A stretch of DNA of 64,000 bases from the NCBI GenBank assembly GCA_946699065.1, contig CAMPDV010000909.1, positions 1-64,000 on the forward strand. Direction: 5' to 3'. This stretch comes from Loxodes magnus (taxonomy: Eukaryota; Ciliophora; Karyorelictea; Loxodida; Loxodidae). Positions 3,825 to 63,262 of the stretch are shown piece after piece. Position 1 is the first letter of the stretch. The number at the start of each line of letters is the position of its first letter. The translations under genes were made by a program, and so were the position numbers. The notes beneath the pieces were generated by a model. The model saw nothing but the letters and a program-made list of their open reading frames with translations, searched no databases and was not told where the DNA came from.

Positions 3825-4677
3825 TCAACTGTACATGTCTTCATCTGAATCAATTTCAAACTGAGATAATTCTTCTTTCTCTTCAATAAGTTCATAGAAT
3901 TGTTCTTCCATCTTCTTGTAATTTTTCTCCAGCTTCTCTAAACAAATTCTAAGGTCATTGTTGTCCTTTTAAAGATATTTATTCTGTTACTATTAATTAC
4001 CAAGATCCTGTTTGATTAGTGTCACACTTGAATCATCTAATATCAGCTTCTTTCTGTAAATACCTCCAAAGTAGTTACAATATAACCTCCTCGATGTCCC
4101 AAATTATTTACGGTGCTGCTCAAGCACTCTTCTTCACTTCGGACATTACCTCCAAAAATGTCCAGACTTTTGACAACAATAGCAACGTTTTATTTAAGGG
4201 CTTGAATTAAAATTTTTATTCTGTTTACATTTTTTCAATTTCCATCTTTTCTGATTAAAGGTAGTTTTTTTTGATTGGTAATCGAATTTTTTCTTTAATT
4301 TTTTATTGATTTGCTTCTAGGTTTTTTTCTAATAGTTCAAATTAGGAAGTTAAGGCTTCAATTTAAAACTAAACTTTACTTACCAAGTCTTGATCTTCCT
4401 TTTTTCTATCTTACAAAAGAAGCCGAGGATTCAAGTTTTCCGCCTTCAGGATCTATATTTCGGTATTCATTTTCTCAATTAATGATTAAAGCTAAATAAT
4501 GTCTTGCTCGTGGGGTTTCTCAAGCTTTTTCAGTTTGCTAGGAAATTCCGTATTTCCCAATCTTTAACAGGAGTAGATTTATCTTTTTTGAATTCTTGGT
4601 TCTTGTTAGTTAACTGAGACTTAAGATTGATCTTTAAGGTTAGAATTCAAGGTTTAGATTCTCGGGTTTTTTTCCAT
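3825..4677 (-). CDS. Gag-like coiled-coil CCHC protein, frame-shifted
   Basis: The minus-strand ORF starts MEKNPRIQTLNSNLKDQ at 4677 and ends at TGA 3825 (SDEDMYS). The first two thirds form a long coiled coil (KLKKLEKPHEQDIIQLQSLI, then QIEALTSQFELLEKNLEANQ). After a change of frame at a T4 run near 4225 comes a perfect knuckle, CYCCQKSGHFWRQC (CX2CX4HX4C). Then follow the family motif GGIYRKKLILDD and a second short coil ending in a Glu/Asp-rich tail. The frame change means one base is missing, or the copy is damaged. A degenerate copy of the same ORF lies at 14215-15027, and aligned residues confirm the frame. The start codon lies about 17 bp from the conserved box at 4694-4712. Confidence 0.65.
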
Positions 4678-8509: not shown

Positions 8510-9080
8510 TTAGTTCTTTAAAATTTAGGATTTATAAAATTAAAAAATAAAGTTATAGAGTTAAATGTTTAAATGAACGTAAAAAGCAAATAATTTCGAT
8601 AAATTTACTCAGATCCTGTTTTAAAAAAATATCTACATTTTTTTTATTTTATACATACAATGAAAACTTTTAGATTAAAAAAATAAAGCTAAAATTTAAC
8701 TTTTGTTTCAGGTTTTTTACTAATTTAAATAATTTGTAAAACATTTAAAAAATTCAAAAAAAATGCTGAGTTTTCTTTTTGTAAGTGATCTTTGATAAGA
8801 ATATATTAATAAGAATATTAATTATATTTTATACTTAGAATTAAACTTTTAAATCTCGAAAACATTTTTTTGTTTCTAATTTAATTTTAATAATTACTCA
8901 TCACTATGATATTTTATTAGCTTATCTATGTTTAATTCAGAACTTAACATGCTTATTACCTTAATATTTTTATTTTTATTAATTTAAAAGAATTTATATC
9001 TATGCAATTAAAAGCTTAACTTGCTAATATAATTGAGAGCAAATTTTTTTAATAAGTGTAACTAAATATTTATTATGTTT

Positions 9081-12000
9081 TCAGGTTATGATGTTTGCTT
9101 GGTAAATATCTTACTTATCATTTTCTTCTAACTCTTTCCTATACATTTAGATAATTGATTTCTCCTCAAGAAACTATTTCAAGCTCTCATTCATTTAAGC
9201 ATTTTTAAAATTACAATTGTTTATCAATAAATCATGCTTACCTATTATTCTTCTTAAAGATCCATTTCTTTTCCAATTACTCTATACATCTTGAGTTGCT
9301 TCCTCTAAAATATTTTGTCAATCTTCAGAGTTCATGTCTCATATCTTAATAGTTTTATCCAAACTTCCTGATACTATTCATTAATCATCGCTAGAAATAC
9401 AAACTGATTTTACTTTATCTAAATGTCCTTGCAGTGTATTTCTTAATTTTCCTGTCTTCATCTCTCATATTTTTATCGTGTGATCATAACTTCCTGATAT
9501 AATTCATTTATTATCACTTGAAATACACACTGATAAAACATCACCTTTATGCCCTTGCAATACGTTTTTTAATTTATTCTGCCTTTATATCTCATATCCT
9601 TATTGTATTATCATAACTACCTGATACAATTCATTTATTATTACTTGTTATACATACGGATTATATTTTTATCTGTATGTCCTTATAAAATACTTCTTGA
9701 TTTTCCTGTTTCTCTTTATCATACTCTTATTGTTTAGTCATCACTACCTGAAATTATTAATTTATCATTACTAGATAAACATACCGACGTTACAGCTAAA
9801 TTATGTCCATTTAAGGAATTTTTAAGCAAACCTGTTTCCATTTCCCAAATTTTTATAGTCATATCTGAACTTCCTGAAATTATTCACTTGTTATCACTTG
9901 AAATACAGACTGAGTTTACAAATCATGTATGCTATGATAATGTATTTTTCAGAATCCCTGTTTCCATTTCTCATATTTTTACTGAGTTATCATCACTTCC
10001 AGAAAGGATTCACTTATTATCACTTGATATACATACGGATTTAATGCTTCCTTAATGATCATGCAAAGTATTTTATAACTATCCTGTTTCTGACTTTCAA
10101 ACTCTTATCTATTTATCATTACTTCCTGACACAATTCACTATTTATCGCTTGATATACTTACAGATGTTACACTTTCTAAATATTCCTTCTTTGTAATTT
10201 CTGAATCTTATATGTCCATCTTCCAAATTCTAATAGTCCTGTCATAACTTCCAGATATTATTCATTTATTATCGTTTGTTATACATATAGAAGCCACAGA
10301 TAACTAATGTCCTTTCAATATCTTTTTTAATTATCCTTTCTCAATCTCTCATATTCTTATTGTCTTATCATCACTACCTGAAGCTATTCATTTGTTATCA
10401 TTAGATATGCATACCTATTAAACTATATCTGTATGGTCTTATAATATTGTTTTTAATTTTTTAGTCTCCATTTCTCATATCATTATTGATTTATAACTTG
10501 CTGAAGCTATCCATTTATTATTGCTTGAAATGAATACTGACTTTATGCCTTCTGTATTTCCTTATAATGTACTCTATAATTCACCTGTTTCTATATTCCA
10601 TACTCTTATTGTTTTATCTTTGCTTCCAGAAACAATTCATTTATTATCAAATGACAAATATACCGAAGTTACGCTACCAGTATGCAAAGATAGTACTTTC
10701 AAAATTTTTCCAGTTTCAATCCAAAAAATCTTTATTGTTTAGTCACTACTTCCTGATATTATTCATGTATTATCAAAAGATATGCATACTGAATTTATAT
10801 CTGCTGTATGTTCTCAAATCTTATTTACTATTTCTCCAGTCTCTTATTCTCATATTATTACTGATCCATCATAACTTCCTGATACTATTAGTTTATTATC
10901 ATTTGATATGCATACACATGTAACAGGCAATTCATTTCCTAATAAAGTATTTTTTAGCTTTCCTGTCTCCATCTCTCATATTTTTACTGTTGCATCAGAA
11001 CTTCCGGAAACTATTCATTTATTATCATTTGCTATGCATACAGATCTAACTTTGTCTTCATGCCCTTAAATTACAGGCATTTAGTCGATTTCTAAATCTT
11101 CCATATTTGAAAATTCGAAATTACAGTTTCTTAATCAGGAGTTATTCAGCTTTACTTTTTCCAAAATTGCTCTACTTAAATTACATGAATCGAAAATAGA
11201 ATTCCTCAAATCAGCTCCTTTGATACAAATTCCTTCAAGATCTTATCTAATGAACTAATAACCCATATAGTTCAAAAAGGTAATTGCATTTGAAGCTGCT
11301 TAATCAACTTAATTCTCCTTCTTTGATAATTATACTACTTTTAGCAAATTCTCTTAAAATTCTTAGTCAGAAATTTCATTTACGAACTATAATATTTCCG
11401 AACTATCCACTAAATTGCATCTATTCAAACTACTTTCCTGGACCTTTGATAAAACTACGAATTATGTACTGAGATAATTCTTTATTCCTTTCACTAAATA
11501 ATAATCCTATATAGATGAATGCATAAACTAGAACTTTTTTGATTCTCCTTCTTTAACTTCAATAAGATATTTGAGTTAGCTATTTTCCTAGATATTTTGC
11601 TTTATCCTTTGGAAGTCTTTATTTTTTAATTTTTCTAATTAAGAATTTTTATTTTTTAGACAAATTGCAACTTCTGCATAAAACTCTTCGAATAAGACTT
11701 TTAACTATTCCATTGTCCCTCCATATTCTTATCACTTTAATTTATATAGATTATGTTCGTAGTAAGTAGAAATGAACACATCATACAAGTCTATTTTATG
11801 TATTATTCTTTGTCTATTTAAAGTTAGCTTATTTAATGTTTTATCATTTTATAAACCTATTGAGAGTAAAAAAGGATTAGTTAAGACTTGCATTAGTCCT
11901 GGAGTGGAAAGTATAGTGCTCATTACTTCCTTTTAAGACTTCAAAGAGATTGAATTTTATCTTCTCTTTTTATTATTTCCCTTACTCTATAAATCCCTCC

Positions 12001-13825
12001 ATATAAGACTTATGTATTTTTCTACTTGCTTCCTGTCAAATGGTTTTATAAATACCACTTGTAATTCTGTCATGTAAACTTATTCATCAACAAATGGAGA
12101 AAAAAGGAATTTATACTTATCATTTCTTAAAGCATAGTCAGTTCTACAAGTGATTATATATTTAGCAAAGGGATATTTAGTCTTAAGCTTATTAGTTTAG
12201 ATTATACGAATATATTCTCCAATCTCTTCATAAGCATCTAATAGAAAAAGAATCTTTCTATACTTTAGCATCTAAGAATGAACTATTTGATATTATTATA
12301 AAGCTTTTTCTAGTAAACTGTCCTCATAATTTGTGATTGTTGGTATATGAACATATACTGGAAAATATTCATGCTTTTTCTTTAATAGATCATAAGCTAA
12401 ATTTTGTAAAAATAAAGTTTTTCCTGATCCTGATTCTCCAAGAAGCAATCAACCAGTTTTTTTATCATCTTCTAGAAATTTTAAAATTTTGCCTTTAAGA
12501 TATACTTTTTTATAGGATTAAGGATTGTCAGCACAAAATAAATTGACATAGGTTTTATTTTTTTCCTTTATTTCATTTTCTAAATCTTTGAATGTCTAAT
12601 AATGAGATTCTTCAGAAATACCTGTTAGTGCATATCAGTTTTCATCTAGTGTTCTTAAATACTCCGTTAATATCATATCTTATGTGACTATGGTTATAAT
12701 TAATTGCTTTTCCTATTTATTTTGCTCTAATTCTTTTTTCTCATATTCGAAAAGTAAAAATTTAAGATCAATAGCTTGCTTGAAATTCTTCATACTCAGC
12801 TCTATCAGAATTCTCAGTGCGTAAGATCTAACCATTCAATCCTTTTCTTTGCCCAATTCCCCTAATAAATTGCACGAATTAGTTTTCAACTCTTCACTAA
12901 CTTCTTTTTTTCTTATAATACACTACAAAAGATAACACGCTCTAAACTTCATTCACTGCTTTTCTTTTAAAACTTGTTGGAACTCCATAAAGTTCTCAAA
13001 ATCAAAATTTTTTATCAAATCATATGCTAACACATTTATACATCATAGCTTTATAATTTCACTTTCTAGATCTTTTTTTATTCATCCTGAACCTCATTTA
13101 TAGTAATCTTATATCCGTGACATTATTTCTTTGTCCTTAATTCGTGTACCGAATTATAAATTTTTATCTCATAATCCAAGTTTTAATAAATTATAAAAAG
13201 ACTAACTTTAGTTTACTTCTTTAATTTTTTTTGCTTATTTTAGAATTTTTTTACTTATGTCTATAGCAAAAAACAGTTCAGGTCCTCCTAATTAGAAAAT
13301 TTTTACCAAAGTTATACTTTTTTAAATTTTGGCTATTAGTTTTTTTTTAGTTTGGACATTCAAAATTACTTACTGAGTCTCTTTTTTTAAAATAATAATG
13401 CTTAGTAACTCAGGTAGTTATCTAGCTAGATATTCTTTTAGAAGTTATGGTCAATCTTAAAGCTTTTGATCAGAAATTACTTCCAAAATTATATTAACTA
13501 AGAGTAAAGGATTTTCAATCTACCTTATATCTACTTTTTAAATAAAATTAAGTCCTTGTAATAGTTTAGTTTTATCAAGTTTACTTAATCCTAAATTCAT
13601 TAAATTAAGTCCTTTTTTAAACTAAATCTCTTCTATAGAAATTACCTTTCTATTTTCTAGTTCTTCTCTATTATCTTCTTGAGTTAAAGTTTCTTGAAAC
13701 GTAAATTACTACTTTTAGTTTTATGGACTTTAAATATCTAGCTGTTTTTGATACCTTTGATTACGATTTTAATTTTTACTGGTAATGCAACCTCCTCCTT
13801 TTGTATCCTAACTATGTAGATACAT
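9081..13825 (-). CDS. STAND-type ATPase: NACHT, pentapeptide repeats, 14 WD40
   Basis: A large regulator of about 1580 residues, ATG 13825 to TGA 9081. Order: a helical N-terminal region; a P-loop GESGSGKT at about residue 463 and a Walker B-like LFLLDAYEE at about 520, typical of NACHT/STAND NTPases; helical linker; pentapeptide-type repeats near residues 865-910 (GADLRNSIFDSCNLSRAIL); then 14 WD40 repeats of the type SVCISSDNKWIVSGSDDKTI, enough for two seven-bladed propellers; a short helical tail. Most Trp codons in the repeats are TGA, while the terminator is also TGA. Frame changes occur at two T runs (9565-9570 and 9666-9670). Removing one base at each gives 1581 codons exactly. By family knowledge such proteins are nucleotide-driven switches in signalling or stress sensing, with WD40 as the sensor. 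The ligand is unknown. Confidence 0.88.
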
Positions 13826-14214: not shown

Positions 14215-15027
14215 TTTCTTTGATCAAATGTACATGTCTTATCTGAGTTAATCCATAATTGAGGTAATTCTTCTTTCTCTTAAATAAACTACTAGAATTA
14301 TTCTTCCATCTTCTCGTAATTTTTCTTCAGTTTTTCTTAACAAATTCTAAGGCTACCATTGTACTTTTGAAATTATTTATTTTTCTATTAATTACCGAGA
14401 TCCTGTTTGAATAGAGTCACACTTGAATCAACTAATAACTGTTTCTTTCTGTAAATACCCCAAAAGCAGTTTCAATATAGCCACTTTGATGATGATTAAA
14501 AATTCTTTCGGTACTGCTCAAGTACTCTTTTTCACTTCAGACATTATCTCCATAAATATCCAGTCTTTTGAAAACAATATTAAGAGCTTGAAGTAAATTT
14601 TTTATTTTTATTAGAATCCTTTATTAAATTTCCATTTTATCTGTTTAAGTTAGTCTTTTTTTAATTGGTAAATTAATTTCTTCTTTAATTTTATATGGAT
14701 TTGCTACAAGGATTTTCTTTTCGCAAAATTGGAAGTTAAGGCTTCAATTAAAAATTAAATTTAACTTACCAAACCTTGATCTTCCTTTTTTTTATCTTAC
14801 AAAAGTTGCCGAAAATTCTAGTTTTCCTTCCTCAGAATTTATATTTCTGTATTCATTTTCTAAATTAAGGAAAAAACTAAATAACTTTTTGCTTATGCAA
14901 TTTCTCGATCTTTTTCAATATTTCCCAACCCTTAAAAGGAGTTAATTATCTTTTTTGAATTCTAGAATCTTGCTTGTTTACTAATACTTAAGATTGATCA
15001 ATTAAGTTAGAAATTTAAGGTTTCCAT
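14215..15027 (-). pseudogene. Decayed Gag-like copy
   Basis: About 800 bp clearly homologous to the ORF at 3825-4677 along its length (start METLNF..., coil, knuckle region, LRICQEKLKKNYEKMEEQF near the end). The knuckle is destroyed: the second Cys codon is now TTT and the His codon TAT, giving YCFQKTGYLWRQC. Several small indels break the frame, including near the 3' end where the other copy ends cleanly in TGA. Unlike the host genes, these losses hit key residues, so this is a true pseudogene. Confidence 0.65.
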
Positions 15028-32259: not shown

Positions 32260-32695
32260 AGTAATTCACTAAGCTTCTGCTTACTAATTTAAAGATTATG
32301 TCTAAACATTGATTCTCAGTTTATACACTAGCAAAGAAAAGATCTTAAATTTCCCAACTTCTAACTAAGAAAAAGTGTTTCAATTACCTTTTTATATTCT
32401 TCTTTTAGTTAATCTTTCTCCCTTATACTTTAAATTTAGTTTGCCGCCATCTAACCCTTTAACAATATGCGTTTATAAAACTTGACAGTTAGCAATTTCC
32501 ACTCACGAAATATGGACAATGATAGTTTATTTTTATGCATATTGAACCACTCATCGTTGTTTAAATGGACTAGTGAGGATGGAGAAGAAAATTAGATGTT
32601 ATTACTAGTAACTGATCAAAAGATAAGCCTTTGAATAACTTTAGAATCCTCCATTTTTTCATTTAAATTCAAATTTTTTTTCTTAACTAAATAAT
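32260..32695. promoter_or_regulatory. Upstream region of the channel-LNR gene
   Basis: About 440 bp of AT-rich DNA before the ATG at 32696. It holds the probable promoter and 5' UTR, but no specific element can be named. Confidence 0.3.
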
Positions 32696-35600
32696 ATGGA
32701 AAGCTCTAAGGTAGAGAAGGCACCAACTCAAGAAGAGATGAAACTTTAGTAACTAGATAAGGAAAATCAAACCAAAAAAACTATAGCTGAAGAAAATAAG
32801 AACTAGAAAGTTTAAAATAAGTAAAATCAAGAGAAAGAAAAGAGATTCTGCTTTTGACAAAGAGCAAAAGGAAGCGAATTTAAAGAACATGGTGTAGGAA
32901 TTTAGCTTTATTTCGATTGAGCTCGCTTTCTTGTTTTAACCTTTTTCGTTATAAGTCTTTTAAGTATACCAAAGATTTGAATCAATTATAAAGGAAGCTT
33001 CTTTAGCAAAACAACAAGTGGAATCCTCGAAAGCTATAATATAGGGAACTTAGATACTGGGAATAGTATTGAATATTTTTGGGTCTTTAATTAAACGAAA
33101 GAAATAAAGAACAATGCTGATAAGGACAAATATTAATACTAATGGTACAAAAATCATGATATAGATATCGAAAACGTACTTAAATCTCTTGATAGAGATC
33201 AGCAATAGAAATCTTATGAAGATGATATTTTGGACAGAACTAGAAAACGAAATCTTTAAATTGGTCTTATAGATTTTTTCCAAAGCTTAGTTTTTCTAAT
33301 TTTTCTAATTGCTTATAGAAAAAGAACTAATTATATCATAAGTAAGGATGAAGAAAGCATCTGTGACTACGCGATTTAGATAAGAGGGCTACCAAAGTAA
33401 GGAATAGATGAATAATAAATAAAAGATTTTTTCTAAAGTAGATATGGAGAAGTGCATGAAGTAGTAATAGGAAACGCTAAACACAATCTTTTATAATATT
33501 CTGATAAGTTGGCAGATATCGAAGATGAAATAAAACAGCTTGATGATCTAAAAAGAAGTAAATTAAATGCTTTCTTAAAAAGATTTTGGACATCCTTAAA
33601 CTTAATTTTAAAAAGAGAGATGAAAAGTTACTAAATGAACTCAAAATGGAAATTAAAAATAAAATTGAAAATCTAGCGATTAAAAAGAAAAATAAGGAGA
33701 AAATTGAAGATATCGTCAAAGTATTCGTCGTTTTTAAAAATAAATAGGATAAAATAAAATGTGTAAAAGATTATAGAAAAACAAAATTTTTCACTTGGTT
33801 TTAGTCCTGAAAGCTTAAATGAGATGAAAAATATCCTCTATGCATTGAAGAAGCAAAAGATCCTTCAGTTATCATTTGGGAAAATCTCGAAGTATCATAT
33901 TGAAAAGGAAAACTGTACTCTTGAGCTGTTACTTTAATTTCATCTGCTATAATTGCTATAACAATAATTATCGTTTGAGGAATAGATTAAGCCAAAAGCA
34001 ATGATTTGCCTACGGACTTTTAATGTGAATAGTATTATAAAAGAGTAAATGAAAAATTATTCTATAATACAAATTAAAAGCTTCAGGATCTCGAAAAGGA
34101 AAAAGGACCTTAGATTTACTAAGGCAGATAAAATACTTTGGGATATTATTGCTGGTGTGGCTAAATGAATAATGTAGATTTATTTTATGAAGATAGTACA
34201 AAAGCAGAAATTTGTTAAGATTATAAAAATGAACTGATTAAATATTGAGCCATTTTAATAGGAGTAGGAGTTGTTGTTACTTTTTTCAATAGATTCATAG
34301 TACGAACTTTAAAAAGACTAAATAATTGATAAAGAAAGCAAGATAAAGTTGAAGCGGATCTTAGTATCGGATTTAAGATGTTTTTATTCCAGTTTTTCAA
34401 TTAAACTTTTACTATTTTTGTTTCAAGTACGAAATCACACGGAGACTTTACAAGAGACTGGTATGTAGAAATTGGAAGAGGGATTACTACAAGTATATTC
34501 ATAGCTATTTTTTGGCCTACCTTTGAAAAGATAATTTTTAAGAAATTTTTTGATTGATATGATAAAAGGCAATAAAAAAATTAACTTCATTACTATGTCA
34601 TAACAAGACCTGAATTTAATGTAGTTGAGCAAAGCTCGTTCATGATGGCTATCATATTTACAATTATGATATACTCAGCTGGAATACCAATACTAATTAT
34701 TTTCGGTTTTTTTTCTCTTTTAGTATAGTATTTATTAGATAGATACTTATTCTTTAACTTCTACAAGAAGCCTCTAAAGATTACGAATTAAATACATCTG
34801 CTTTTTCAAAAGGTTATACCTTTTGCTCTGCTAGCTCATGCTATTTTTTCAATATTTATGCTAGGAGCTAAAGACATTTTTCCAAGAGAGTATTATACTT
34901 GCTGAAATTAATTTGAAGATGATTGCTTTTCATACAATTACTAATAAAGTAAAGGTTTAGAAAAAGAGTTGTTGCTTGTGAGGAACTTATAAGATGAATG
35001 CAATTAAGGTTGTCTAAATTCATGAATTGGTGACGGCTTTTGTGATTTTAATTGCTATGTAGAAGCATGCTATTTTGATTAATTGGATTGTTCATTTGCA
35101 GCTTTTGACTGTTATATAGAAGGATGCTAGCTAAATAAACTTAAAAATGGAAAATGTGATCTTGATTGCAATGTTACATAATGCTTTTATGATGCTTATG
35201 AATGCATCAATATTTAAGCCTGCGACTTAACTAAAATTGGAGATTAATCTTGCGATTTAGAATGTAACTTTGAGAATTACAACTGAGATTAAGGAGACTG
35301 CTTTTGCTCTTCTGAATGCCCTATAAAATGATTAGAGGATGGAAAATGTGACATAGCCTGCAATATAAAATAATGTAATTACGATTAAAACGACTGCTAA
35401 TGCCCAAAAGAGTGCAATTCAAAAGAAGACGATGGAAATTGCGACTAAGATTGTTATAACTAAAGATGTAAATAGGATTGGAAAGATTGTGAATGTGCAC
35501 AGGGTTGTTATAAAGGATTTTTAAAAAATGGAGAATGCAATTTAGAATGCTTTAATGAACAATGCAAATATGATTATAATGATTGTATCTGTCCTAAAGA

Positions 35601-37936
35601 TTGTAGTTTATAATTAATATACAATTAAGAATGTGACAGTGAATGCTATTCTAATGAATGTTTGCTTGATGGATTTGCCTGTGAATGCTCTAATTATTGT
35701 AATCAATAATGAAATGGTGATGGATTTTGCGATACTTAATGCAATATAGATATATGTGCTTATGATGGTGGAGATTGCGAATGTAATGAAGGATGTCCTG
35801 AAACTTGAATAGGAGATTAAGTATGTGATTATAGCTGTAATGTAACTGAATGTTAATTCGATTAGAATGATTGCGTATGTCCATGTAGCGAAGAAAAACT
35901 TAATAATAAGAAATGTGATTAAGAATGTAATTTGATAAGTTGCTAATATGATAACTATCAGTGTAACTGCGCACCTAAATGTAATTAATAAATGCTTAAA
36001 ATGATATATGCAATTAAGAATGTGATAATTATAATTGTTTATATGATAATTAAAAATGTTTATGCTCACAAGGTTGTATTTACACAGAAATTGGAAATGG
36101 GATTTGCAATTAAGAATGCAACTAAGAACAATGCAACTGAGATTCAGGAGATTGTGAATGTTCAGCTGGATGTAATAGAATCAAGATAGGTAATGATTAA
36201 TGTGATTATTTTTGCTATGTTAAAGATTGTGAATATGATTAAAATGACTGCTAAAATTAAGTAATTCAACATCAAAATTAATCATGTAAAGATCCCTGTA
36301 AAAAATGGAATATGGATGGTATATGTGATTATGATTGCTATAATAAAGATTGTAACTATGACGGGTATGATTGCTCCCCAAGTAAAGAAGATAAATGCAC
36401 TTGCAGTAAAAATCTGAGGAATAATGGAATTTGTAATATCGAATGTTTGAATATTGATTGTCTATATGATTGACCTGACTGTGATAATTATATATGCAGC
36501 AAAGATTGCTATGTTTAATATGTGTAAGATGGCTATTGTGATGACTCCTGTAATGTTCCTGAGTGCGAGTATGATGGAGGTGATTGTCCATAAAGGGCTA
36601 AATAATTAGATTTTAATAAAGATTTGTGTGTATCAAATGGTTGCAAAGTTTACTGATTAAAAGATGGATAATGTGACGAACAATGTAATATTCCTGAATG
36701 CTTATATGATATGGGAGATTGTTCATATTGTTCCAAAATTGGATGTTAATTAGAATGGATAGGTGATGGAGTTTGTGATAAGATTTGTGCTAATCGTTTT
36801 TGTAAATACGATTCGAAAAATGATATGAAAGATTGCGAAAAAGAGATAGAAAAAATTAAGCTTTGTGAAATAAAAGAATGCTATTGGCATTGAATTGGAG
36901 ACTGAGTGTGTGATGAACAATGTAATATACCTGAATGTGATTACGATGGAGATGATTGTGTTGCATCCTCAGTAGAAAGAATAAGCAATTGTTCAAAATT
37001 AAATAAAGATTTTAATATATAAAATATTGGAGATAATTATTGCGATTCAAACTTTAACAATAATGATTGCCTTTAAGAGTATCAAGACTGCAAATTTGCA
37101 ATGACTTTGAAAGATAAAAAATGCTATTTTTCTAATTTTTAAAGATGCGCTTAAAATAACTCAGTAGCAGATAAGGCATTATTTAAATCAGGAATACTGA
37201 TGATCACCATAATTATATTAATATTTATAGTTTATTCGTTAAAATATATATGTATAATGAAAAAAACAAGTTGTGGTAAAAAAAATTAGGATTAGTAAGA
37301 AAGTGAGAAAATGAAAAAAGAAGAGAAAATAACTGAAAATAGTTATTTTATATTTTAGTGACAAAAAATCTAAGAGCAAGCTATAAGCAAGAAAATAATC
37401 CAGAGTATAAGAAGAGAACCGATTGATTGAATCAAATAATACAAGATCTTAGTTACTTAAGTTAATTTAAAGAAAACTTATAGAAGACCTTTGAAAACTA
37501 AAATAATTAGTTTATCTTGTAAATAAAAAAAAATTTAAAAGAAGAATAAAAGAATGAAGAGTCAAAAAGTGAAGAAGAATAGAATTAAGAAGACAATTTT
37601 ATGAATATTACAGTTAAGGAAGAAAATACGTCAAAATAAAATAATTCTAAATAAGAAGAAGAACAAAAAGATTAAAATTTAGAGTTATAAAATATTGAAT
37701 TGAATCTAAACTAAAATATCAAAACAACGGGCAGAGAAAACCAAGAACTGGATAAAAATTTTATATAAAAGTAAGCATTTTCTTAAAAATTATTGAAAAA
37801 AAGCAATAAGAAGAAAGACTAGCATTTTAAAGAAAGCGCAACTATAAAAAAAAGACCTTATAAGGTGATAAAGCTTTATGAAGAAAGTGAGTCAAGCAAT
37901 GATCTAAAAATGAAAGAGAAAGATTAGGATTTGTGA
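32696..37936 (+). CDS. OSCA/TMEM63-like channel with ~20 LNR modules
   Basis: About 1747 residues, ATG 32696 to TGA 37936. Order: Lys/Glu-rich cytosolic start; membrane helix near residues 78-95; loop; helix near 190; an RRM-like cytosolic domain (YAIQIRGLPKQGIDEQQIKD, later VKVFVVFKNKQDKI) matching the PHM7 cytosolic fold of OSCA/TMEM63; the hallmark EAKDPSVIIWENLEVS; about seven more helices including IPILIIFGFFSLLVQYLLDR; then about 20 Cys-rich Lin-12/Notch repeats (GDGFCDTQCNIDICAYDGGDC type) at 35000-37110; a last helix (ILMITIIILIFIVYSL) and an acidic, Gln-rich tail. The repeats fall in the last extracellular loop, consistent with disulfides. OSCA/TMEM63 are mechanically gated cation channels. 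Frame changes sit on A runs at 33577-33581, 35998-36001 and 37525-37533. One missing base at each restores 1748 codons. Confidence 0.8.
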
Positions 37937-38109
37937 GATGTAACTATATAACTCTTTTAAACTCTTTAGAAAGTAATTACAATATAAAATAAATAAATAA
38001 TATCTCAAATATATTTTAATCTATTCTTAAAATTAAAACCCATATGTTTATACCATTTCAGTCATGAAACAGTTAAAATATTATTTAGATATAACTCTAT
38101 TTTTAATAT

Positions 38110-43112: not shown

Positions 43113-43183
43113 TGCACAATCCGGGAATCGAACCCGGGTCGCATGAATGGGAATCATGCATTCTACCACTAAACCAATTGTGC
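43113..43183 (-). tRNA. tRNA-Gly(CCC)
   Basis: A 71-nt cloverleaf on the minus strand. The acceptor GCACAAT pairs with ATTGTGC, discriminator A. D-arm GGTTTAGTGGT; anticodon stem CATGA/TCATG with loop TTCCCAT giving anticodon CCC (codon GGG). T-arm CCGGG-TTCGATT-CCCGG. A short T run follows on the transcribed strand, as for RNA polymerase III. A broken copy lies at 23714-23784. Confidence 0.95.
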
Positions 43184-44133: not shown

Positions 44134-45720
44134 TCAATTTTCTTTCCATAAAACTTTACTTTCCAATGTATCTAAATTCATCTAAATTACAAATTTATTT
44201 TCCTTATTTTGTACAAAAGCGTATACGAAATTTACCACTTTCTTGTATGTTTAGACAAACTAAACTTTTTCTCCAATGCTAAATTCTTATCACTGTTATC
44301 CATCTTATTTATAAGCTTTGTCCGTTTCAAAATTAAGTTCGTTTTATAATTAAGTGAGGCCACCAAAGATAAATATTTATGATGTTTTTATTATTAAAGC
44401 ATTTGATAAATTTAGGGGCATAAAAATGTTATCCTATTATCATTTATCGTTATAAATATCATAGCTGAAAACTAAGTTTGTTGTCCTTCCATTTGCATTA
44501 ATTCCACCGAAAGAGTAAATTTTATTTTCTTGCTCATTTGCAACTAAAGAGAGACCATAGACTTATATGGGAAGCTAATTTGCATTTTATCATTTTTTTG
44601 TATCATTAAAATCCATCCATTCTACTGTATTTAAAACCTCGAAGTTATCAGATTTTCCTCCTGCTACAAAAAGTTTACTCTGACATATACAAATCCCAGA
44701 ACTACCTCTTCCTTATATCAAATCACCTAACTATATAATAGAACTTTCAGTAAAGAAATAAGACTGTTTAATACCTAATTCTCTTTAATAATCAATTCCG
44801 CCAACAATAAAAAGATTCTTACAATATTCTATACAAACTGCCTCACGAAAGAATGCTATTGATGTCTCTATTTCTTGTATTTTTTTATTCTTGATATCAA
44901 ATTTTTTAATCTTGTTAGAGTTGCTTTAAATTGCAAAAATACATTCAACTTTTTCTCTAAAATCTTTCTATTGATTTTTACTTTTAGGAAATAAATTTTA
45001 ATTCATAGATTAAAAAAGAATCTCCTAGCAAATATTTAATTCATTTTCTTCTATCTGTCCCATTTTTTCATATTAGTTTGTTAGTTGCAACTTGGGCTCT
45101 ATTTCATCTTCTATTTCTTAGAGTACTTAGTTTAATTAATTCTATCATGATTCCGCAAGCAAGATATTATTCTGTTCTTCGTCTTAAATTCAATAGTCAT
45201 TAAGTTGCTTATCATTTAAATTTCCTGGGTAATTTATACTGAAATCTATTATCTCTTCATATCTAAGTCCTGGATTTTGTTTTTCTTCTTCACGCTGATT
45301 TTTTCTATTTTAAGTCTTATGGAATTCTTATTCTTTCTATTACAGAACTTATTGGCTTTTATTCTTGATAAACCTTTCAACTTCTTATAAAGCTTCAACT
45401 AGAAAGTCATTAGCTACCTTTTAGATATCATCCTCAGTGGATATCAAAGTATTCACATATTTTTATATTCCAATCAAGCTCAAATTTAGTTTTTTTTCCT
45501 TTTGTTTTTTAAATTGTTCAAGTATTTTTAGATTCTAAGATTAAATATCTGGACTAAACATTGAAAATGAACTGCATATTTTGCACTTATAAGTAACTCA
45601 ATTCTTATGCTATTCAAAGACACATTTTTTGCAAATATTATGATTGCAACTCAGTTATAGAGGAAGATGATTATCATCATCGAATGCCGTTGAACAGTTC
45701 TAGCACTAGACTTCTTACAT
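44134..45720 (-). CDS. RING finger - coiled coil - Kelch protein (copy 1)
   Basis: An intact 528-residue protein in one frame from ATG 45720 to TGA 44134. A C3HC4 RING lies at residues 6-49 (Cys 6, 9, 25, His 27, Cys 30, 33, 46, 49). A helical, Gln/Glu-rich middle follows (about 60-270). The C-terminal half is a Kelch-type propeller with diglycines in FIVGGIDYQ, LFVAGGKSDN, IYSFGGINANGR and FIFGGLTQ. By family knowledge RING proteins recruit E2 enzymes and Kelch propellers bind substrates, so a single-chain ubiquitin ligase is the likely role. Paralogues lie at 50902-52449 and 61716-63262. UGA codes Trp inside and ends the gene. Confidence 0.9.
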
Positions 45721-50731: not shown

Positions 50732-50901
50732 TAATTTAATTTAATTTAATTCAATTTATTAATTTTTTTTAATTATGTTTTTCTTAATTTTTGTAAATTT
50801 ATTTAAGATAATTATAACTTAAGAAATTTAGAAATTACTTATTAATATTAATTTTTTTAATTTTTATTATAAATTTATCTTAATGTAAAATTAATTTCAT
50901 T

Positions 50902-52449
50902 TCATTTTGGAATTTTCTTGAGTATTTCTGCTTCCAAAGTAATTGTATTAACTTTAATGATATGATAATATTCCTTTTAGCTAGATTATCACATGAAAGC
51001 ATAAGCAAGCTTGTTTTTTACTTTTACTTAAGTGTCGCAAATACATTCTATTGGAATTGTACCCTGCTTTCAGTTATTATCTTCTCGTTTAAATATTTTA
51101 TTTTATTGAGTTTTTTAAGAATTACCTCCAAATATTAGAAGAGGATCTAAATTTACTGCAGGAAGACAAATTTCCTAAGGAAGATTAAAATTAAGCTAAA
51201 TTCATTTATCTTCTATAATATTGTATTTTAGAATTTCATTTCTATATATTTAACCTTTTTTTCCTCCAAATAAATAAATATGATTTTCTTACTAGTCTGT
51301 CACAAGGTTAATATCATAAGTATCATATGGTAATTTTGAAAGATATTTTCATTCTTTTCTATTATCTAAACTTAAATTTTCTACTGAATTTAAAGGAAGT
51401 TTTGTCTTCCCAAGTCCTCCGACCGCAAAAATAGTTCCTTTTGCTGCTGCCAATCCTAAAGCATATCTACCATCATTCATATCTGGTAACTATTAGCAAT
51501 TTCCATTATATTCAATCTACCAGCTTGTTCTAAATATTTCATTAAGGGATTTTCCCCCTACTAAATATAGTTTATTTTCATATTCAACACTCTTGAAGTT
51601 AATAGATTTCTGCAGCTATAATTTTATTTAAAAATATTCTTAATTTTCTATATTAAATAAATGAATACCATTCCCATCTGTCTTAAATCGATGGATATAA
51701 TTTTACTGCATTTTATTAACATTACTTTAAGTTACTTAAGCTTATAATGCATTAGACAAATTCTAGATATTCTAAGGTGAACTATTTTCAAAGTTTTTTA
51801 GTTTTTCTTAAGTACTTTTAATTTCTGAGTTAAAATGAGTTTAAAAGCATTGATTAAGTTAACCAAGTAGCTCTTATTTCTATAAAATAAATTTCTAGAT
51901 CTATTAATCTCCACGCATTTAAAGTGTCTTTAAATATTCTAATTTGTAATTTCCTTCAAAAAAGTTAGGCTAAACATTAAGTTTCTATTTTTTGCTATCT
52001 TTGTACTTTTCCATCGTAAATATTCTATTATTTAAGTCTTCTAAAAATTACTAAATTTCAATATAAATCTGTTTACTTTATGCGAAGTATATTTAATTCA
52101 GAAGTGATAAAACTTTTTGAACAATGGAGGATTGTTGAAAAACTAATTTTTTTCTTATTTCCTTAAGACTATTTATTTAAAATTTGAGAAGCTTTATTTC
52201 CTCACTTATTTATTAATCTAAATTTTCGCTAATTTTAATTTAATTTATCATCTATTCATTTTTTTAAAGCTTGGCTGGATGAACATGTTATATCGAATCA
52301 CAAGCAGGACATTTGTACTAATTCTGCTTTCTAAATTCATTTATTAAGCAGATTTAGCACATTGAATGCTAGCAAGGTAATAAAAATGGAATAGTTAATT
52401 GAGTATCGAATTCGTTTAGACATAAAAGACATTAACTACTCTGTTACAT
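50902..52449 (-). CDS. RING finger - coiled coil - Kelch protein (copy 2)
   Basis: An intact 515-residue protein in one frame from ATG 52449 to TGA 50902. C3HC4 RING with Cys 7, 10, 26, His 28, Cys 31, 34, 47, 50; Gln-rich helical middle; Kelch-type repeats with LYLVGGKSLNE, IFAVGGLGKTK, IYLFGGKKGQ and LLIFGGNSQK. It is closer to the third copy (61716) than to the first: both share PFxLPCxHSxCQxCLxNEFRxQNQ in the RING and NFAYAFM/KLAYAFMW near the end. A substrate-binding ubiquitin ligase role is inferred from the domains. It is divergent from the ORF at 52611 with about 160 bp between, so the two may share a promoter. Confidence 0.9.
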
Positions 52450-52610
52450 TTTTATTTTGTCAAAAAAACTAGTGATAAATAGTTATCTTTCATTGAAATT
52501 TAAAATATCTAATAAAAATTATGAAAATATATTTATTTAATTCTCAATTCTTGTTTCATATTTTCACTTTTGGTATTCAGTTCAGTTCAGTTGAATGAAC
52601 TAGTTTGCAA

Positions 52611-61715: not shown

Positions 61716-63262
61716 ATGTAATTTTCAGAAAAGTGTAGCCCTTGCTAAAGTGACTTCAATAAGTAATAGAAAATTCCTTTTATACTACCCTGTGAACATT
61801 CTATTTGCTAAACTTGCTTAAAAAATGAATTTAGAAGATAGAATCAAAATAAATATCCCATTTGTCAGAAAATATCAAAAATTCATCCAAGCAAATTACT
61901 TAAAAATGACCAAATTATTTAAAAGTTAAAGCAAAAAGCTTAGAAATAAAAATAGATAACTGCCACTTTAGAGTCTCTAAGGGACTAGAGAAGCTAGTTG
62001 AAGGCAATAAACTAAAAAATTGCCTAATCGTAATTCTCGATTACTTGTGAAATTATCAGCCTCATTAATAAAATTTATTTTCCATAACAAAATTAAATTT
62101 CTAAGGAAATTTCTTCTAAGATACATGAGATCTCCCATTTGATAAAGGTACTTAAATAGTATAAAGAGTAGCTAACTTTTACACATATAGATAAATTTAA
62201 TGAATAATAATACTCTTAACTGTAAGAAAGTTAGAAGATACTATAACAGAAAGGAAACTAATAGATTTACAACCTTGGAAAGCAAAAAAAAGCAATTTAG
62301 CAATTTTTTCAGTAGCTATTCTAATTATCAGATAACTATGAAGCACAGCAAGTTTAATAAACAGAAAATCAGTTTGTTGAAATTAAAAAAAATAATGAAC
62401 AGTGTGGAAAGAACTAGAAGCAGTAAGAGAAAATTACAAAGCTTTAAGAGGAAAATTCTAACTTTATTAATTGTTTTTGGAGTGATAGTAAGAATCTTCA
62501 TTTATTTGATGTCAAGACAGAATAATATAAGTTAGTTAAAATATAGCAGCAAATTCCTTATAATTGAAGAAGTGTAGATTATAATAAAAAGATATATTTA
62601 ATAGGTGGAAAAATTAATGATTAAGCTGTAAATATTGCATGATAAGTAGAATATAATGGAGAATGCTTTTAGTTGAGTAATTTAAATATCGAAAGAAGTA
62701 GTGCTGGTGTAGCAGCAGCTAAAGGAGTTATTTTCGCAGTTGGTGGAAAAGGAATAAGTAATTAATTATTGAATTAAGTAGAATGCTTGAAGCTAGAAAA
62801 TTAAACTAGTTGAATATTTTGCTAGCAATTACCATATGGAATTCATGACTAAAGGCTTGTAATTGACAAGTAGTAAGAAAATATATATTCTTTTGGAGGA
62901 ATTAGATAAGGAATTTAATTTATAAGCAAGATTTTAAAGTATAATATACTACGAGATTAATGAAATAACTTGGATCTAAATTTACCTTAAGGTTTGGCAA
63001 ATATTGCGGCATGTTTAGAACCTATACTAATATTTGGAGGAAATCATAAGAATTAAAACAGTAAAATAAAATATATAAAAGAGAAAACTAAGAATGACAA
63101 TAAGGTATACTGCCAGAAGTACGTAACTGCTTATCAGAATCAAAGATAAATAAAAATTTTGCTTATGCTTTTATGTGATCATAGAACTAAGAAGATTTTT
63201 AACTGCTGATAAAAGTAAATTAATAATTTAAAAGCTGAAATATTAAAAAGAATATAAGAATT
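61716..63262 (+). CDS. RING - coiled coil - Kelch protein (copy 3), damaged
   Basis: Plus-strand paralogue of 50902-52449, starting MQFSEKCSPCQSDFNKQQ at 61716. The RING keeps Cys 7, 10, 26, His 28, Cys 31, 34 and 50, but the seventh ligand (position 47) is Tyr (TAT for TGT). A Gln-rich helical middle is followed by Kelch repeats with IYLIGGKIND, IFAVGGKGIS, IYSFGGIRQG and LIFGGNHK. Near 63065 and 63225 the frame changes at A-rich runs; the end (NKNFAYAFMW...KAEILKRI) matches KLAYAFMW...EAEILKKI of copy 2. The missing RING ligand suggests impaired zinc binding, so this may be a pseudogene or a RING-dead regulator. Confidence 0.75.

Follow-up and report, generated by a model that had tools for sequence, protein, structure and literature searches.

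We report a gene of the karyorelict ciliate Loxodes magnus (contig CAMPDV010000909.1 of assembly GCA_946699065.1) that probably encodes a real and new fusion, in which a membrane body resembling the OSCA/TMEM63 channels carries about 20 Lin-12/Notch repeats (LNRs) between its last two helices. The gene occupies positions 32696 to 37936 of the 64 kb of contig sequence analysed here, hereafter the window, which has a GC content of 25%. An earlier note on this DNA had proposed the fusion from the letters alone. If real, it would show that LNRs, which are part of the force-opened lock of animal Notch, became joined in a distant protist to a body resembling a channel.

Translation followed NCBI genetic code table 27, in which TAA and TAG encode glutamine and TGA encodes tryptophan or stop. 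Under this code the gene yielded protein in four pieces (P0001-P0004), from which a joined conceptual protein was also made. As no frame ends in table 27, an open frame proves nothing by itself, and we therefore ran a codon hidden Markov model (HMM). The frames of this gene served as its seed before re-estimation over the window, a circularity that leaves the model not fully independent; a second codon table, compiled from other genes called by this self-seeded model, is "independent" only in quotation marks. The codon HMM returned a single coding region at 32687-37954 with three frame switches, and kept 33548-35991 in one frame. As we read it, the gene crosses two frame switches and one intron over 1742 steps, a count that takes in the terminal TGA and two X residues. 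Counted over the pieces, 82 TAA, 20 TAG and 23 TGA codons lie in frame, while the last 20 codons ahead of the final TGA include a TAG and neither TAA nor TGA; such a stop-codon pattern near gene ends has been reported for L. magnus (PMC11441545). Across the window, predicted coding sequence has a GC content of 28%, compared with 20% for the remainder.

The LNR array matched the Pfam model PF00066 far over its cut-off, with 10 stretches in P0002 (E 3.8e-39) and 9 in P0003 (E 1e-47). The count of about 20 repeats given in the earlier note held: 18 have all six cysteines and two, identified by eye, are degenerate. Its placement between the last two helices also agreed with the hydropathy profile, which puts the array in a loop of 762 residues between transmembrane helices (TM) 9 and 10. 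The LNR core motif occurs 18 times in the array, whereas none of 2000 shuffles of the array's residues contained it more than twice; outside the array it was found 0 times in the six frames of the window. All three scored core cysteine columns are kept in each of the 18 six-cysteine repeats, of which the third to the twelfth are spaced 30-32 residues apart. Naming the calcium-ligand positions by what we take to be the numbering of Notch work, we found D or N at the N15-type site in 18/18 repeats, D at the D30-type site in 18/18 and D at the D33-type site in 13/18, and these conserved positions make calcium binding by the array plausible. Recent duplication within the array was rejected on the DNA identity of the repeat cores, which averages 0.53 with a maximum of 0.69. 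Together with the pattern across codon positions (0.51/0.62/0.47), these identities point to an old array maintained at the protein level and to no recent burst of copies.

The LNRs of Notch, pappalysin and GNPTAB share with the Loxodes array the six cysteines and the calcium-ligand positions, and their PDB chains were matched by it. The Loxodes array differs in comprising about 20 repeats in tandem and in its surroundings, as the Pfam search found no EGF or ANK match in the pieces of this gene and none to NOD/NODP, the HD domain of Notch. In a survey of Notch origins the LNR is taken as ancient in eukaryotes, and calcium binding is given as the one feature common to the repeats of Notch and PAPP-A (PMC2770060).

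The membrane part appears to be akin to OSCA/TMEM63 proteins; its matches are weak but specific, and our confidence in the family call is moderate. Ten helices were assigned, nine above a hydropathy cut-off of 1.1 and TM8 by eye. The RSN1_7TM model scored 22.8 bits (E 7.1e-5) in P0002. In the joined protein the PHM7_cyt model (PF14703), unmatched in P0001 by itself, scored 18.0 bits (E 0.0035) over its entire length (profile 1-174/174), and the two OSCA/TMEM63 matches, both sub-threshold, stand in the right order. Neither family appeared in reversed or locally shuffled control sequence. Outside the LNRs, the only PDB matches at E <0.01 were to "Calcium permeable stress-gated cation channel 1" and "CSC1-like protein 2", which we take to be TMEM63C and TMEM63B, respectively. 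The chain 8k0b was matched at E 1.3e-4 by P0002 and at E 0.001 by the joined protein, and CSC1-like protein 2 at E 0.0023 by a two-sequence profile. The sequence "IIWENL" stands opposite "IIWKHL" of 8k0b, in an alignment piece that scores -2.5 bits. The Loxodes protein resembles OSCA/TMEM63 channels in the order of its putative RRM-like cytosolic domain and RSN1_7TM-type helices, in its IIWENL-type stretch and in having TMEM63-type chains as its nearest PDB matches outside the LNRs. It differs from them in lacking TM0, in falling under both Pfam cut-offs and in its TM9-TM10 loop, whose place is taken in OSCA1.2 by short linkers.

OSCA1.2 has eleven helices, TM0 to TM10, with its N-terminus outside and its C-terminus inside (PMC6235563). 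In the Loxodes protein, residues 1-77 contain no hydrophobic segment by hydropathy, and because TM0 is absent we describe the protein as OSCA/TMEM63-like, stopping short of assigning it to the family. Without TM0 the N-terminus is expected inside, with the TM9-TM10 loop remaining outside, so that by analogy with the family topology the array would lie outside the cell or in the lumen of a vesicle.

A protein search with P0002 (E up to 0.001) returned a fish GNPTAB and a JGI metagenome protein, P0005, which has an unfused layout: its TM9 ends in "DIFPRGY" and is followed by a short loop, in which no LNR was found, and then by TM10 and a tail that align with the Loxodes protein. Up to the end of TM9, 64 of 195 aligned positions (33%) are identical. 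The two proteins share "DIFPR.Y" at the end of TM9 and have TM10 and a tail motif in register ("KSGI" of the Loxodes TM10 aligns with "ESGI"), whereas P0005 has the short loop without LNRs and, by the alignment, an incomplete N-terminal side.

We conclude that the membrane part and the LNR array probably belong to one gene, fused at the level of the sequence. The best RSN1_7TM stretch runs to 34866 and the first LNR starts 132 nt further on, at 34999, in the same frame of continuous DNA, and this basis for the one-gene reading does not lean on the codon HMM. No in-frame methionine occurs between residue 722, in TM9, and residue 1100, in the tenth six-cysteine repeat, a span of 377 residues; a separate LNR gene would consequently have no start for the repeats upstream of residue 1100. 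The shared frame and the lack of a methionine between these points are evidence against two genes. Were the gene split nevertheless, its first part would be without TM10 and its second without any hydrophobic segment ahead of the LNRs, as judged by hydropathy. These observations, and the similarity of TM10 and the tail to P0005, speak against an artefact of assembly or gene modelling in which an OSCA-like gene and an LNR gene are adjacent or have been misassembled together. Such an artefact would be compatible with the three frame switches, with the TGA at 34903-34905 soon after TM9, which we took as tryptophan and which could in principle be a stop, with the frame ambiguity of single 30-nt windows at the TM9-LNR junction, and with the lack of an independent copy in scans of viral and genome contigs; on balance we consider it improbable.

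Apart from that TGA and the ambiguous junction windows, several observations weigh against the reading as an OSCA/TMEM63-like fusion. When the joined protein is searched, the RSN1_7TM score drops to 17 bits (E 0.004), and both OSCA models remain under their Pfam cut-offs (28.7 for RSN1_7TM and 27 for PHM7_cyt), the best chance match of the controls reaching 15.4 bits (E 0.019). P0005 by itself matches neither the OSCA Pfam families nor TMEM63 chains, and is therefore a relative of the Loxodes protein and not an independent proof of its family. AlphaFold2 gave models with a mean pLDDT (predicted local distance difference test) of 41.7 and 31.3, both unusable. The support comes from a lone locus, no second species with the fusion having turned up in the searches. 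The interpretation in the earlier note is partly borne out: the fusion, the position of the array and a kinship with OSCA/TMEM63 find support, the kinship being weakened by the sub-threshold Pfam scores, the absent TM0 and the unusable structure models.

The three frame changes had been put down to errors at three runs of A. All three changes were found, and the first two sites fit missing bases, but the third is better explained by a 17-nt intron, although the codon support for it is weak. Long-read assemblies often contain single-base errors at A-runs, and switches 1 and 2 each fit one missing base, most simply an assembly error. At switch 2, two cysteine codons are separated by 26 nt, where 27 would match the spacing of the neighbouring repeats. 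Beyond missing bases we have no explanation for these two switches, which counts against our reading of the gene; also contrary to it, the codon score across 33583-33702, at switch 1, is 1.9 nats better in frame 1 than in frame 2. A 25-nt intron candidate at 33558-33582, which had the top gain (10.2 nats), was set aside since it enters frame 1 and loses the "VFVVF" strand. Two choices of an intron HMM fared no better: an intron at 33508-33524 was disfavoured because it would remove sequence that the codon profile shows as coding in frame 0, and one at 35939-35961 was rejected because it would remove the "CQYDNYQ" core of the ninth six-cysteine repeat. We also considered programmed -1 frameshifting at TTTTAAAAAG (33606-33615), which contains an in-frame slippery heptamer of the form U UUA AAA, but did not adopt it, as the codon profile places the switch upstream; by eye, no heptamer of this type was present at switch 2.

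The two one-base switches, for which no intron offers an explanation, are also what would be expected of a recently broken gene, that is, a pseudogene or a disrupted allele of a formerly working fusion. However, the LNRs flanking switch 2 are intact, each in its own frame, and conservation across the repeats is highest at the second codon position, so that any break would have to be recent; the frequency of A-run errors in long-read assemblies likewise argues against it. We regard a broken gene as quite unlikely and retain missing bases as the simplest account.

For switch 3, the codon score taken alone is best at about 37192, inside TM10, which counts against our placement. The next positions in the profile are 37360 (-1.9 nats), 37276 (-3.4), adjoining a run of eight A at 37278-37285, and 37528 (-6.4), within a run of nine A at 37525-37533. 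The position at 37192 was set aside because TM10 needs the first frame, which we kept through this helix since the most hydrophobic segment lies there and aligns with P0005. As only an early switch yields a tail that lines up with P0005, we prefer a T-rich 17-nt GT..AG intron (Table 1), which we consider likely; alternatively, the switch may lie at the run of eight A. The intron is among several of 17 nt that the intron HMM, whose prior favours this length, picked in the window, and intron lengths in L. magnus have their mode at 17 nt (PMC11441545). Against the intron, the gain from switching frame there does not exceed 2 nats; of the 91 GT..AG stretches of 17 nt in the window, none exceeded the gain cut-off of 6 nats.

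Table 1. Features of the OSCA/TMEM63-like and LNR gene, in window coordinates
Feature	Position	Strand	Basis or remark
Whole gene	32696..37936	+	ATG at 32696 to TGA at 37934-37936
TM1	32927..32983	+	Hydropathy; aligned in register with residues 134-206 of CSC1-like protein 2, but very weakly (0.4 bits)
TM2	33260..33316	+	Hydropathy
RRM-like cytosolic domain (PHM7_cyt), with the EAKDPSVIIWENL stretch at its end	33365..33885	+	PF14703
Frame switch 1	33540..33594	+	Codon-score profile best here; A5 run 33550-33554 inside; codon HMM at 33548
TM3 to TM9	33928..34869	+	Hydropathy for TM3-TM7 and TM9; RSN1_7TM best stretch 34504-34866
TM8	about 34708-34764	+	Placed by eye
20 LNR repeats in the TM9-TM10 loop	34999..37091	+	PF00066
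Frame switch 2, within the tenth six-cysteine repeat	35983..36008	+	A4 run 35998-36001 inside; codon HMM at 35992
TM10	37176..37232	+	Hydropathy 2.66, highest of nine segments
Probable 17-nt intron GTTATTTTATATTTTAG (frame switch 3)	37342..37358	+	Intron HMM
C-terminal cytosolic tail with abundant K, E, Q and N	37359..37933	+	Translation

A search at the strict limit of E 1e-10, with residues 300-1500 of the joined protein as query, gave five LNR proteins among 3471 candidates; none of the five (P0007-P0011) matched an OSCA Pfam model at E 0.001 or below. P0007, whose label "Clim" we take for Corallochytrium limacisporum, has an LNR array without a channel and only one N-terminal hydrophobic segment, and looks secreted, while P0010 is an LNR/kringle/glycosyltransferase protein. 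SteCoe_11896 of Stentor coeruleus (P0009) also comes from a ciliate and, like the Loxodes protein, combines an LNR array with several TM segments, but its LNRs are N-terminal, and after them come a beta-helix region and then a membrane part of another kind. LNR arrays may serve ciliate surfaces more widely. P0008 and P0011 (LNR and DUF6923) resemble the Loxodes protein in having TM segments followed by long LNR arrays, and differ by an extra repeat domain. LNR arrays on membrane proteins are therefore not unique, and no other was found with an OSCA-like body. Scans of viral and of genome contigs, with six short peptide patterns each, returned no relative, and neither these scans nor the protein searches with P0002 and residues 300-1500 revealed another OSCA and LNR fusion; this absence is weak evidence, as proteins translated by code 27 are likely to be fragmented in databases or missing from them. 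Full-text literature searches, judged partly by title or abstract and leaving most subscription papers outside their coverage, found no such fusion, in agreement with the earlier note, which knew of no description. In a survey of calcium channels in diatoms, OSCA among them, neither "Notch" nor "LNR" occurs in the main text (PMC11085791).

The coding region, the one-frame fusion, the number of repeats and their conserved calcium-ligand positions can be read from the sequence itself, and what follows is graded in order of rising doubt: the location of the array outside or in a lumen, its calcium and disulfides, ion conduction by the body, and gating by load or ligand through TM9/TM10. On this reading one gene would produce a single membrane protein with an OSCA/TMEM63-like body, an RRM-like cytosolic domain and about 20 inserted LNR modules. 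The body would be a cation channel, or a lipid-moving relative, of the OSCA/TMEM63 kind, and the array a disulfide-knotted, calcium-loaded ectodomain of about 700 residues. Such an array could couple outside contact, matrix or ligand to TM9/TM10, through which a pull or the calcium level at the array would shift gating. We hold tentatively that the array couples outside signals to the gating of a ten-helix OSCA/TMEM63-like body in this way, a possibility that falls somewhat short of an expectation.

In Notch the LNRs sit on the HD domain, and the unfolding of LNR-A/B of Notch2 gives a peak in atomic force microscopy with a median of 179 pN, EDTA strongly altering the unfolding (PMC4537882). 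The earlier note had invoked the calcium-stabilised lock of Notch for the Loxodes array. As stated, this analogy failed, since no NOD/NODP match was found at E up to 1 in P0001-P0004 and LNR arrays also exist without a channel (P0007). The absence of an HD partner counts against coupling to gating, as does OSCA1.2, which is gated by membrane tension and in which, apart from short linkers, nothing structured was seen on the extracellular side, "presumably due to flexibility" (PMC6235563). Both the missing HD partner and the existence of LNR arrays without a channel (P0007) or on other membrane proteins (P0009, P0008/P0011) would suit a real fusion whose array is a surface coat or an adhesion or ligand-binding ectodomain, with a body that is gated by tension or moves lipids like its relatives; the OSCA/TMEM63 family is opened by membrane tension (PMC6235563). 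On layout grounds only, this fits less well with an array that lies in a loop of the channel-like body and not at a free end, and would be directly coupled to TM9/TM10. We see a passive ectodomain as possible, if somewhat doubtful.

The topology rule would allow the array outside or in a lumen equally, so the same protein might sit in a membrane inside the cell (that of the vacuole, the cortical alveoli or the Mueller organelle of Loxodes) with a luminal array that senses calcium or load. Loxodes possesses a statolith organelle and responds to gravity (PMC5460273), which would suit such a location; we give it little credence. Any tie between the statolith or gravity behaviour and this gene is speculation. 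Returning to coupling at the array, a tethered mechanosensor arisen by domain insertion, in which a calcium-tuned, force-bearing LNR ectodomain would relay contact, flow or statolith load to the channel, seems unlikely to us. If true, LNRs would have been recruited for force sensing a second time, independently of Notch, and a natural OSCA-like channel with a large modular ectodomain, rich in residues of calcium sites, would allow gating by tether force and by extracellular calcium to be tested.

Elsewhere in the window, a coding region of 1583 codons on the minus strand (9077-13825) carries WD40 repeats towards its end (PF00400, E 1.8e-104, 11 stretches); the codon HMM placed no frame switch in it and the intron HMM one possible intron of 23 nt. 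Three regions within 19 kb form a local family with a RING finger and Kelch repeats: 44158-45720 and 50896-52461 on the minus strand and 61728-63146 on the plus strand. A tRNA-Gly (CCC) at 43113-43183, on the minus strand, is the sole tRNA and the sole Rfam match at the gathering threshold in the window. Two intron-like stretches on the minus strand, 4047-4063 and 14439-14458, lie in different coding regions and have the common start GTATTTACAGAAAGAA, a hint of a duplicated piece.

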